Shown: positions 45,801 through 48,926 of the stretch, piece by piece | Position numbering within the stretch: the stretch's first letter is position 1 | Layout of the letters: each line of letters starts with the position of its first letter | Source: Burkholderia catarinensis | GTDB lineage: Bacteria > Pseudomonadota > Gammaproteobacteria > Burkholderiales > Burkholderiaceae | Length of the DNA stretch: 64,000 bases | Direction: 5' to 3' | Assembly: GCF_001883705.2 (NCBI RefSeq) | Contig: NZ_MDEQ02000012.1 | Coordinates: forward strand, 186,001 to 250,000 | Notes under the pieces: generated by a model | What the model saw: the letters and a program-made list of their open reading frames with translations, nothing else | Told to the model about the DNA's origin: nothing | The model's database searches: none | Position numbers and translations under genes: made by a program

Positions 45801-46673
45801 GGCGTCGCGCTCGGCGCCGGCTATCTGTCGGACGCCTGGCGCTTCGATTTCGGCACGTCGCCGCTCGGTTTTCCGGTGCATTACCTCGTCGGCGGCGTGC
45901 GCTATCGCTTCGACGCGGGGCCGGCCAGTTTCTCGGTGAACGCGTCGCGGCGGCCGGAAACGAGCAGCGTGCTGTCTTACTCGGGGATGCGCGACCCGTG
46001 GACGGGCGCGGTCTGGGGCGGCGTGCGCCGCGACGGCGTGAACCTGCGCGCGTCGGTCGACGTCGGCCGCACGAACCTGTTCGCGGAACTCGGTGCGGGC
46101 GTGCTGTCCGGCCGCAACGTCGAACGCAACGCGGAAGTCACGCTGCGCACGGGCTTCACGGTGCCCGTGTACGAGCGCGCGACGATGAAGGTCAGCACCG
46201 GGCTCGTCGGCAATGCGTGGCACTACGCGCAGAACCTGCGCTACTACACGTACGGGCAGGGCGGTTACTACAGCCCGCAGCGCTACCTGTCGCTCGGCGT
46301 GCCGATCGAATGGGCGGGGCGGCACGATGCGCTGTCGTGGGACCTGACCGTCACGGGCGGGATCTCGAACAGCTACGAGAAGGATTCGCTGTTTTACCCG
46401 ACGTTCTCGGACCAGCGGGCCGCGCAGGTGGCGGCCGGGTTCGTGTACGCGGGCAGCTCGACGCGCGGCGTGTCGTTCTCGTATGGCATCAACGGGATCG
46501 TCGAGTACCGCGTGAACCCGCACCTGAGCGTCGGCGCGCAGCTGCACGTCGACCGGTCGCACGACTACGCGCCGAGTTCGGCGCTCGTGTACCTGCGCTA
46601 TGCGTTCGACGCGCGTGCGCAACGCAGCTGGCTCGTCACGCCGACGCCGGTTCGGCTTTATTCGGATTACTAG
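42792..46673 (+). CDS. bcsC: Cellulose export protein BcsC (TPR plus outer-membrane barrel)
   Basis: A 1293-residue exporter. A signal peptide (RRPLKRAVPHVAGFAWLASS, ending VCAAAPGA) is followed by about 900 residues of TPR helices and a C-terminal 16-strand outer-membrane barrel (from about 920, ending PTPVRLYSDY). The TPR part binds peptidoglycan or periplasmic partners, and the barrel lets cellulose out. GTG at 42792 is chosen because GGGGAGG lies seven bases before it and a signal peptide follows; it overlaps bcsZ by 16 bases. The frame stays open far upstream in bcsB, but that part is a shadow. The TAG stop is part of the CTAG at the edge of the palindromic element. Confidence 0.95.
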   Translation: MRRPLKRAVPHVAGFAWLASSVCAAAPGAASGATMPNTATPAASASADAQRQLETARLWGVKHRDDLARDALRKGLLIAPGDAELLAEQVRVLLRLGDAKGAQAALARLQAQSPNAPATRRVADEYRVATSGRGEMAQIRLLARSGRADEAARRIVALFPNGAPSGALGAEYYQIVSNAPGGREPAIAALRRAVAADPQDTSASIALARLLNQRADTRPEASRIAGALAKRADADHTEAMALWRRVLQSAGNDPAYLDALHAYLALVPDDTEFLDRVAALDRQRDAQRRLERDPDYIAQQRGLRALARGDLAGADPLLARAARARADDADAIGGLGLLRLREGRHDEARALFARAATLATDQRGKWQGLARTAQFWGLLAQGRTAAAAGRPQDAERAARAALAMQPDSPDAKLQLADALLAQRDWARAEPLLRELLAARSPNLSAVRGTATLYENTARADRIGPLLDALQERVTGRDDRRALDGLRADLLANQARALADKGERGPAAQRYEAAVRAAPDAPWTRFALARLYRDMGLPQLGRTVMDDGLAQSDTPEMRYATALYRNSLDDVAGARDALASVDDAHRSDGMRALARKLDAEGALADARGSLGRGDHAAFDASLAHAQASAPDDPDMLAAIGAQWIDAGEPDRGLAPLHDWIAAHPGEADADVRLRYGDLLGSAGRDDALAAWLDALRREPSLTPAQTARIEDQSLRLVLRQTDDAIARQDYAQARTLLDRVSPAGRADKRHALELADLERAQGHYGAARDALAPVVARTPDDADTQLALARIDEDSGNRAAALARVQAVLARTPDDDVDTQLSAVRRLNALRRPDEAAQVTDRLHAAYPARPDVTVAAGRVAEAQGRYGDAASLYRLSQSQERTTGVSPGRDGLTPAQAAFADLQQRRNPEIETGWTPAYKSGDEGISSYRAQQVPVYMQMPIRYDGHVFAQIDTVHLDPGTLDTSDPNAYSLKTFGTYAALRAQNALTPASIANPPGSLHQTATGVALGAGYLSDAWRFDFGTSPLGFPVHYLVGGVRYRFDAGPASFSVNASRRPETSSVLSYSGMRDPWTGAVWGGVRRDGVNLRASVDVGRTNLFAELGAGVLSGRNVERNAEVTLRTGFTVPVYERATMKVSTGLVGNAWHYAQNLRYYTYGQGGYYSPQRYLSLGVPIEWAGRHDALSWDLTVTGGISNSYEKDSLFYPTFSDQRAAQVAAGFVYAGSSTRGVSFSYGINGIVEYRVNPHLSVGAQLHVDRSHDYAPSSALVYLRYAFDARAQRSWLVTPTPVRLYSDY

Positions 46674-46958
46674 GGTCTGTTTCCATATGGAACACACATG
46701 CGAATGCCCGAAATCGCTCGTAGGGCAAGAAGTGAGGAGCGCCGTTTGGCCGCGCCAAACAAGCGACGAGCGACGCCGCCATACGGGCGATTTCGGGCAT
46801 TCCCGTGGAATGAATTTTTTAATTAGGGGTTGCCACGAGAACGGCCGCTCGCCGCGTTGCGCTCCTTGCGAATACGTCAGTATTCGCGGCGTCACGCGCC
46901 TCGCGAGCGGCTGTTCTCGTGGCAACGCATGTGCGTTCCATATGGAAACAGACCCTAG
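46670..46958. mobile_element. MITE-like palindromic element inserted between bcsC and bcsE
   Basis: The ends are 33-base inverted repeats, 46670-46702 and 46926-46958, identical at 32 of 33 positions; they begin CTAGGGTCTGTTTCCATATG. CTAG borders both ends (46670-46673 and 46955-46958), so it is either a 4-base target duplication, as produced by IS5-type transposases, or part of the inverted end. Inside are two large hairpins: 16-base arms at 46702-46717 and 46787-46802, and 23-base arms (22 matching) at 46829-46851 and 46904-46926. Small ones are nested inside (46744-46760; 46868-46887). There is no gene, so a transposase elsewhere would have to move it. The bcsE ribosome site (AGGGGA) overlaps the right CTAG. 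Confidence 0.8.
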
Positions 46959-46967
46959 GGGAACGTC

Positions 46968-48926
46968 GTGAATACGGAAATCGATGCCACCCGTCCCGTG
47001 CTCGGCGCCGCCGGCCTGCTGGGCCGCCTGCGTGCGTTGCTGCGCTCGGGGCCGGCCGGCGGCCGTGTTGGCACGGTGAGCCGGCTCGCGATCGACGGCT
47101 TGCCCGATACCTGGACGCAGCTGCAAGCCGGCGGCCTGTACGCGATCTACGCGGCAGGCGGTACGCCGGCCTGCGATGCGCTCGTGTGGGAGAGCGCGCG
47201 ACAGGCGCGCACGCGCGACGTGACGGTCGTGCTCGCGCGCGACGCGGTGCACGTCGCCGAGCAGATGCAGGCGCGCGGCTTCGCGGGCGGTGCGCAGCCG
47301 GCCGGCTGGCCGCGCAACCTGAACGTGCTGGCGATGCCGGCGGCGGCCGAACCGGCCGGCGGCGACGGCGGCGCGACCGACGACGCATCGCGTCGCGCGG
47401 CGCCGGGCCCGTTCGCACGGCTGACCGGCGGCTTGCGCGCGCTGAAGCGCTACGGTTTTCGCGCACGTTCGCTGTATTTCGTCGAAGGCGCGCAGCGCTG
47501 GCTCAGCTGGGACGACACGACCGCGCTCGCCGATGAGGCACACGCACTCGCCGACTGGTGCCGTACGCACCGGATCGCACTCGTGCTGCTGCTCGACCCC
47601 GAAGCGGCCCGTGCGGGCGCCGACCCGCGCACCGACGATGCGCCGCTCGTGCGCGATGCGAATCGCGCGCCGCGCAGCGGTTTCCACGGCGTCTGCTCGG
47701 GCGTCGCGCAGTTGCAGCGCACGCACGGCGAGCTGCTGTGGGTCGTCGATTTCTGGCGCGCGGGCGATACGCTCGCGGCCGGCGAGGTGCGGCCGCTGCG
47801 TTTTGCGCCGGGCGGCCGTCTGTCGGCGAGCGTCGATGACGGCGCGACCGAGCCCGCGCGGCGGATGAAGCTCGCGAGCGACGAGGATCGCGTCGTCGTC
47901 AGCCGCGCGGTGCTCGACGGCGCGAACCGCGTGCCCGGCGACTGGGAAATCGTCGACGACAACGCGGCCGTCGTCGCGGCCTGCGCGCGTGCCCAGGCCG
48001 CGACCGCGGTGCTGGTGTTCCGCTCGCATGCGCAGCTCGAAGCGTTGTGCGCGGATGTGCACGCGCTGCGCCGGCAATGCGGCGGCGCGCTGAAGATCGC
48101 GGTCGTCGAGCGCGGCGAAGTGCTGCGCCAGCAGTTCGAGATGCTCGTGCTGAGCGTCGGCGCGAACCGCGTCGTCGCGCGCGACCTGCCGGTGTCGCGG
48201 ATGCAGGCCGCCGTGCACGCGCTGCGCGGCCAGCTCTATGCGCGGCCCGTCGCGGCCGACTATCGCGCGGCGCTCGCGGCCGCGCTCGGCGATTCGGTGC
48301 TCGGCTATCTGCCGGTCGGCGCATTCTGCCTGCGGATTCGCGCGGTGCTCGATCGCGGCGCCGTGCTCGCGCTGCCGCACACGCTCGCGAAGATCGCGCT
48401 GCTGCCGGGCGTGTCGCACGTCGACGCGCTGCGGCATTGCCGGCCGCGCCGCGCGGGCGACGTCGTGACGGCCGATGCCGGGCACCTGTACGTGTTCCTG
48501 TTCGCGTGCGAACCGGTCGACGCGGAGGACGCGCTCGCGCGCATCTTCGACGTGCCGGTCGACACGCTGTCCGACCGTGTCGTGTGCCTCGGACACGGCA
48601 GCATCGACACCGAGCTCGATGCGCTGAAGGCCGAGAACCGGCGCGCGCCGATCGCCGACTACAGCGATTTGTTTGCGGCCACGCAGCCGGCGGGCGCCAT
48701 GCGCACACCGCCCGCGCGCGCCGGTCTCGGCGAGGCGTTGCCCGACGCGAGCGAAGTGAGCGGGGCGATCGATGCGATCGATACGATCGTCGCGCTCGAT
48801 GCGATCGGTGCGGCGCCGTCGGCCGAGGCCGTCGACGCATCGGCGCCGGAACCCGTCGTTCCTGCCGCGCGCAAGCGCGGCGCCGTCCGCAGCGCGATGC
48901 CGCTGCGCAAGGAGGGGGTCACATGA
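46968..48926 (+). CDS. bcsE: Cellulose biosynthesis c-di-GMP sensor BcsE
   Basis: A 652-residue cytoplasmic protein of the E. coli-type cellulose system. The C-terminal GIL domain keeps the c-di-GMP I-site RxGD as R495-A-G-D498 (HCRPRRAGDVVTA), with ALPHTLAKIALLPGVSHVDA before it and HLYVFLFACEPVDAEDALAR after, matching E. coli BcsE closely. BcsE binds c-di-GMP and BcsF and boosts cellulose production. The start is a GTG with AGGGGA eight bases before it, directly at the end of the palindromic element. The stop overlaps the bcsF ATG (ACATGA). Confidence 0.92.
   Translation: MNTEIDATRPVLGAAGLLGRLRALLRSGPAGGRVGTVSRLAIDGLPDTWTQLQAGGLYAIYAAGGTPACDALVWESARQARTRDVTVVLARDAVHVAEQMQARGFAGGAQPAGWPRNLNVLAMPAAAEPAGGDGGATDDASRRAAPGPFARLTGGLRALKRYGFRARSLYFVEGAQRWLSWDDTTALADEAHALADWCRTHRIALVLLLDPEAARAGADPRTDDAPLVRDANRAPRSGFHGVCSGVAQLQRTHGELLWVVDFWRAGDTLAAGEVRPLRFAPGGRLSASVDDGATEPARRMKLASDEDRVVVSRAVLDGANRVPGDWEIVDDNAAVVAACARAQAATAVLVFRSHAQLEALCADVHALRRQCGGALKIAVVERGEVLRQQFEMLVLSVGANRVVARDLPVSRMQAAVHALRGQLYARPVAADYRAALAAALGDSVLGYLPVGAFCLRIRAVLDRGAVLALPHTLAKIALLPGVSHVDALRHCRPRRAGDVVTADAGHLYVFLFACEPVDAEDALARIFDVPVDTLSDRVVCLGHGSIDTELDALKAENRRAPIADYSDLFAATQPAGAMRTPPARAGLGEALPDASEVSGAIDAIDTIVALDAIGAAPSAEAVDASAPEPVVPAARKRGAVRSAMPLRKEGVT

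Follow-up and report, generated by a model that had tools for sequence, protein, structure and literature searches.

Between bcsC and bcsE in this Burkholderia cellulose operon, there is a near-perfect palindrome containing two nested stem-loops. This raises the question of whether the operon carries a mobile passenger or a structure that acts on its mRNA. We analyzed the palindrome in the window, i.e. the whole 64-kb stretch of DNA, and compared it with other copies of its family, here called family A (Table 1).

The bcsC-bcsE gap holds a palindromic element

The terminal arms are identical at 32 of 33 positions (97%). Inside them lie two further stems, one of 30 nt (46697-46726/46778-46807, 87% matching with a perfect 16-base core) and one of 24 nt (46829-46852/46903-46926, 96%). 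When searched with up to three mismatches, the 33-mer end occurred within the 64-kb window only at these two arms and never in 100 shuffles. The + strand from 46664 to 46964 has a folding energy of -198.3 kcal/mol (z = -17.8), and none of 100 shuffled sequences was as low. These results confirm the palindrome with 33-base inverted ends and nested stems that had been described from the letters alone. The same description had placed no gene inside the element; among ORFs of at least 150 amino acids, every overlapping one extends from the neighboring genes. With its terminal inverted repeats and with no transposase gene among the ORFs listed at this cut-off, the 283-bp sequence has two properties of a bacterial MITE.

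Table 1. Features at the bcsC-bcsE junction, in window coordinates
Feature	Positions	Strand	Basis or remark
Element proper, family A, 283 bp	46673..46955	+ (bcs transcription direction)	Borders from empty-site comparison and 98 copies
Left terminal inverted repeat, including target bases	46670..46702	+	33 nt
Right terminal inverted repeat	46926..46958	-	33 nt
Left TA of target duplication	46671..46672	.	Empty site G030; with the next G forms the bcsC stop TAG (46671-46673), where the bcsC frame ends
Lobe 1, nested stem-loop	46702..46802	+	Consensus structure, 98 copies
AT-rich spacer with T run	46803..46828	+	Sequence
Lobe 2, nested stem-loop	46829..46926	+	Stem search and consensus structure
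Right TA of target duplication	46956..46957	.	Empty sites and copy borders
bcsE, first downstream gene	46968..48926	+	PF10995 CBP_BcsE, E = 1.9e-134; GTG start at 46968

The identity of bcsB was confirmed by PF03170. The purine-rich site of bcsE, AGGGG (46957-46961), begins inside the right TA and is also present in empty sites. A known RNA family was dropped as the identity of the element, as the best Rfam matches to 46400-47200 scored far below the gathering level.

Copies, empty sites, and a TA target

The source genome contains 43 matches to the element, of which ten, with 283-316 bases and 85-100% identity, are close to full length. Matches were found in 59 of 65 genomes of the genus Burkholderia, in 42 of the 249 genomes of the family sample (6 of 25 genera), and in seven plasmid records, from Burkholderia, Paraburkholderia, and Caballeronia, giving the multiple dispersed copies of a bacterial MITE. 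No match was found among the phage records, and a phage link was dropped. The copy sets used below are samples, of at least 98 and then at least 136 copies of family A, and of at least 89 copies of a second family, B. Copies that did not cover the query from bases 1-8 to 281-289, or whose E value was above 1e-30, were excluded; the second family A batch accepted partial copies longer than 180 bases, and both it and the family B set excluded copies less than 40 bases from a contig end. Some copies (L077, L080, L081, and others) are 316-343 bases long, with about 27 or 54 extra internal bases, and another length variant, L010, has a palindromic insert of the CCAAGGGGACTTCCTTCGGGGCG type. In the open-licence PMC papers searched, no description of the element was found.

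The nearest empty site, in G030, where the end of bcsC is 98% identical, reads TTACTAGGGGAACG. The CTAG at each border had been read as a 4-base duplication, which is wrong; only two bases, TA, are duplicated. Over 64 sites, CTAG/CTAG borders occurred at only 24, alongside TTAG...CTAA at 9, TTAG...CTAG at 6, and CTAG...CTAA at 4, and such mixed types do not fit a 4-base duplication, which we ruled out. The CTAG appearance at the bcs site results from a C-TA-G target combined with the element's own ends, G and C. TA flanked both borders at no fewer than 47 of the 64 sites, and this both-border pattern was absent from at least 10. In several copies with non-TA borders (L022, L057, L048, and others), the palindrome continues outward (TGAG...CTCA, TCAG...CTGA), as though correction between the arms had extended into the flanks. 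A copy in Paraburkholderia sprentiae likewise begins inside the stop codon of the gene that precedes it.

The bcsC-bcsE junction could be compared in the 53 of the 65 genus genomes whose bcsC end was usable. The full element is present at the same base in seven of these and a remnant in one (G002), and 45 have neither, so that empty sites as well as a target duplication accompany the element, as in bacterial MITEs. Among the carriers are B. cepacia LK29 and B. arboris LMG 24066, and B. puraquae CAMPA 1040 is empty (these records overlap the 65-genome set). All seven copies share one orientation and have rare end variants in common, and their carriers are spread over the flank tree. We rejected a single ancient insertion: the carriers require seven changes on this tree, at least five of them forced (shuffled mean 6.8), and a tree with the carriers in one clade gave a p-AU of 1e-49, although the flank tree is a quick tree in which 23 of 50 inner branches are open. 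The bcs-site copies may owe their distribution to insertion on several occasions, to exchange between species, or to precise loss.

The remnant in G002 (L162) is 26 bases long and retains one element end, CTAGGGTCTGCTTGCATATGGAACGC, immediately before the bcsE start. At three other junctions (L064, L065, and L082, in G043, G010, and G006), short tandem duplications adjoin the same TA (CTAGGTTACTAGGGG, CTAGGGACTAGGGG), indicating that this spot changes often even without the element.

IS5-family insertion sequences share the outer ends

IS5-family insertion sequences with the ends GGGTCTGTTTACATTC have the outer 14 end bases and the TA border in common with family A. One of them, L154, on a Burkholderia aenigmatica plasmid (NZ_CP091649.1), carries GGGTCTGTTTACAT at both ends with TA outside and agrees with the outer ends of family A at 14 of 14 bases on both sides, which supplies the autonomous relative of a bacterial MITE. 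Its transposase matches NF033580 with 190.4 bits (cut-off 110) and also DUF4096. L154 differs from family A in its length of 824 bp, in carrying a DUF4096/DDE transposase, and in an interior and inner ends unrelated to those of family A. The commonest family A form matches the IS5-family ends at all 14 outer bases, and the left end of the bcs copy at 13 (C for A at the 12th base after TA). When 16 loci with IS5-type transposases were scanned, eight had an end matching the first 16 bases of family A at 13 or more positions. These shared ends support the earlier proposal that the element was mobilized by an IS5-type transposase.

The source assembly, which consists of 85 contigs and from which one may be missing, yielded no intact IS5-family element with these ends, only fragments or distant relatives (the best with 69% identity over 72 residues and a stop). 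The 22-base end occurs in this genome only as paired MITE ends; the 16-base end occurs at 18 places, 16 of them within family A copies, one within a family B copy, and one beside a broken IS5 fragment. A broken IS5-type transposase fragment (L135, G000:C1:639677-639921) has an end, TAGGGCCTGTTTACGT, near the family B ends and is possibly what remains of a mover.

Together, sequence comparison gives good support to the classification of the element as a MITE, as the sequence-only reading had proposed: other copies, empty sites, the TA duplication, and the IS5-family ends all exist, including the two kinds of evidence, empty sites and further copies, whose absence would have spoken against it.

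The two ends change together

Counting one copy per site (64 sites), departures from the consensus in the ends were double in 78 cases and single in 22, compared with means of 9.1 and 157.4 in shuffled copies; this count omits the column pair 27/263, which is A.C in 39 of 98 copies. The 64 copies have 33 distinct left 24-mers, and yet the two arms are identical in 49 of the 64. At one site present in three genomes (L201, L228, and L232), L228 and L232 each have private changes in both arms. End variants track the site, with the nearest neighbor at the same site in 23.4 of 49 cases (shuffled 1.6); interiors do so less than the ends (10.5 of 49) and partly track the genome (16.8 of 85, shuffled 2.9). 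We read this pattern as copying from arm to arm together with exchange between copies. Paired changes of this kind are a known product of template switching (PMC8794818).

Across the consensus stems of 98 copies, 9268 cells are Watson-Crick, 427 G-U, 26 A-C, and 79 other. The ends contain 10 GT and 11 AC mismatches, i.e. no wobble preference, which fits a cause at the DNA level. In the lobes, GT mismatches on the + strand exceed AC mismatches in both family A (50 to 25) and family B (61 to 38), so some RNA-level selection is possible there. Constitutive G-U pairs were abandoned as proof of an RNA function, because, although the first count looked one-sided, a strand-neutral recount of the fixed non-pair columns found A-C as well (GT 5, AC 4).

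Family A is mostly oriented with transcription, and family B is not

Gene contexts were taken from a simple codon-based caller trained on the 64-kb window, not from annotation. By this measure, 56 of the 98 family A copies are flanked by co-directional genes and point the same way, 7 are so flanked but point the other way, 26 lie between divergent and 6 between convergent genes, and 3 are undecided. For flank-defined sites between co-directional genes, the ratio is 35 same to 4 opposite (p = 3e-7). The second batch gave 11 to 2 at new-only sites and 46 to 6 overall. After sites were merged by 400-base flanks, 42 of 47 were same-strand (42 to 5, p = 2.5e-8), with 19 to 1 at tight junctions (19/20) and 23 to 4 at loose ones; mixed-orientation groups (two in family A, three in B) were counted by majority and a tie by its first row.

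Family B is a second palindromic family with the ends GGGCCTGTTCACGCTAATAACGGG, the same two-lobe layout as family A with other stem sequences, and the same TA borders. One copy lies about 4.5 kb past the right end of the window (G000:C4:254535-254851), others are L012, L014, L024, and L025, and matches occur in 56 of the 65 genus genomes. Its orientation is balanced at 24 to 25, or 21 to 22 (21/43) with wider site merging and 3 to 4 at tight junctions, and the difference between the two families is significant (p = 3e-5). Since family B is unbiased, the gene caller itself is not the cause of the family A bias. Folding stability slightly favors the + strand in 86 of 98 family A copies but in only 45 of 89 family B copies. 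The sequence-only reading had suggested that the folded element could act on the transcript, by termination, processing, or shielding of the bcsE start. The orientation bias is indirect evidence that the RNA strand matters.

Both neighboring genes were submitted to Pfam for 8 of the 35 sites in the same orientation, and a single gene for 2 further sites. The family A host pairs are FAD-binding and Fe-S/CCG proteins (like GlcE/GlcF, at a site seen in six copies), a sensor kinase and response regulator, two ABC permeases, two FtsX/MacB permeases, a luciferase-like protein and TonB receptor, a FlgK/flagellin-type pair, two FlgE/F/G-type rod genes, and an ABC ATPase with MlaD. Neighbor pairs of these kinds are usually co-expressed; thus, the element must let transcription pass.

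The bcs copy has a terminator-like hairpin, CATTCC-CGT-GGAATG-AATTTTTT, on the + strand (46798-46812 plus tail), completed by the spacer. It is one of three terminator-like sites in 801 bases, compared with 0.6 in shuffles. Hairpins below -6 kcal/mol before a T run occur in 25 of 98 family A copies on the + strand and in none on the - strand, and in family B in 2 of 89 on the + strand and 19 of 89 on the - strand. Their presence on the favored strand speaks against a plain terminator filter. The C over G ratio of family A is raised on the - strand (1.57 versus 1.23) and is equal in family B (1.48 and 1.45), a weak hint that the C richness of the family A - strand would fit Rho-dependent polarity. 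An outward sigma-70 promoter was rejected as the cause of the bias: one scan gave 0 sites, the promoter scan of both strands of the element showed none, and the best scores of the two strands were weak, 5.6 and 6.3 on a scale on which the consensus scores 19.8 and the 95% tile value is 7.6.

Discussion

Family A is a multi-copy family with a TA target, empty sites, IS5-family ends, concerted change of its two ends, and a strand preference between co-directional genes. New among these facts are the joint change of the ends and the orientation bias, for which family B is a built-in control. We consider it probable that the bcs element is a non-autonomous IS5-type MITE that sits in the TA of the bcsC stop codon as a passenger. 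A family A element would have inserted at this TA, mobilized in trans by an IS5-family transposase whose gene lies elsewhere. It would then be transcribed with the operon and fold out into one closed hairpin with several branches, which RNA polymerase passes and RNase III or RNase E perhaps trims. The opposite orientation would be polar and be purged from operons, and the ends would be kept matched mainly by replication template switching that copies arm onto arm, not by RNA pairing.

The orientation bias is the point at which other explanations have to be weighed. It could arise at insertion, if the transposition complex of family A read the direction of transcription or replication and that of family B did not. 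The common orientation of the seven bcs-site copies and the persistence of the bias at loose junctions would follow from such a rule; still, we think it rather improbable, because families A and B are alike in layout, TA borders, and IS5-like outer ends, which makes separate rules an extra assumption, and because pneumococcal repeats, in the excerpt of PMC3049150 used here, merely mirror coding bias at about 61-63%. Doubtful, but worth retaining, is the proposal that family A has a strand-specific RNA activity, e.g. anti-polarity or controlled processing, and is kept in one orientation by selection, with family B having no such activity and not being kept. It is very improbable that the element serves as a transcription terminator or attenuator to reduce bcsEFQAG. 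The + strand hairpin with its T run argues for it, but a comparable hairpin is found in only about a quarter of the copies (25/98), neither strand showed a promoter for restart, and strong termination would fit poorly with the position of copies between genes that usually need co-expression.

It also seems unlikely that the element is a domesticated punctuation mark, in which RNase III or RNase E would cut the folded + strand RNA, the bcsBZC and bcsEFQAG messages would acquire separate lifetimes, and selection would keep the orientation. The orientation bias, the greater + strand stability in family A and not in B, the GT excess in the lobes, and the AU-rich spacer between two large hairpins are consistent with it, as are, in the portions of PMC2229807, PMC3049150, and PMC10969869 drawn on, the precedents of NEMIS/Correia (RNase III) and ERIC (RNase E, orientation-dependent). 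On the other side, no single spacer motif is conserved, and the element occupies the bcs site in only 7 of 53 genomes scattered on the tree and is therefore dispensable there.

Comparison with known repeats, for which we drew on excerpts of PMC3049150, PMC2229807, PMC10969869, and PMC3189936, places the passenger MITE that we favor near several families. Correia/NEMIS elements, the MITEs of Neisseria, resemble family A in having TA at the ends, long inverted ends, and no transposase. As described in these excerpts, they are transcribed with their neighbors and cut by RNase III; co-transcription of family A would be a likeness. They are about 107 or 155 bp long with 24-bp ends (PMC2229807, in the part used), whereas family A has 283 bp, two inner lobes, and a different end sequence. 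For ERIC/IRU of enterobacteria, the excerpts state that orientation matters for the co-transcribed RNA and that copies often lie at the 3' ends of genes. These elements differ in length (127 bp) and sequence, and ERIC orientation decides destabilization of the upstream message, whereas the family A fact is a placement bias. The Chunjie MITE of Geobacter (178-235 bp, versus 283 bp for family A) is reported within an operon that it does not disturb, and the excerpt of PMC10969869 contained no orientation statistics for it. CIR of Caulobacter/Brucella, with two long arms and a linker, resembles the lobes and spacer of family A but is said there to be without 5'-3' end pairing; the ends of family A pair as a 33-base stem.

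The ends of family A show clearly, in bacteria, how both arms at a fixed site can be substituted together, and they carry a warning that covariation alone is no proof of a functional RNA. In families A and B, the same genomes hold two kinds of MITE that share a layout but differ in orientation bias, which is strong in A and absent in B. This natural paired experiment makes the tolerance of operons for long palindromes directly testable. If family A does have a strand-specific activity, that activity would be what allows essential operons to accommodate a 290-nt palindrome.
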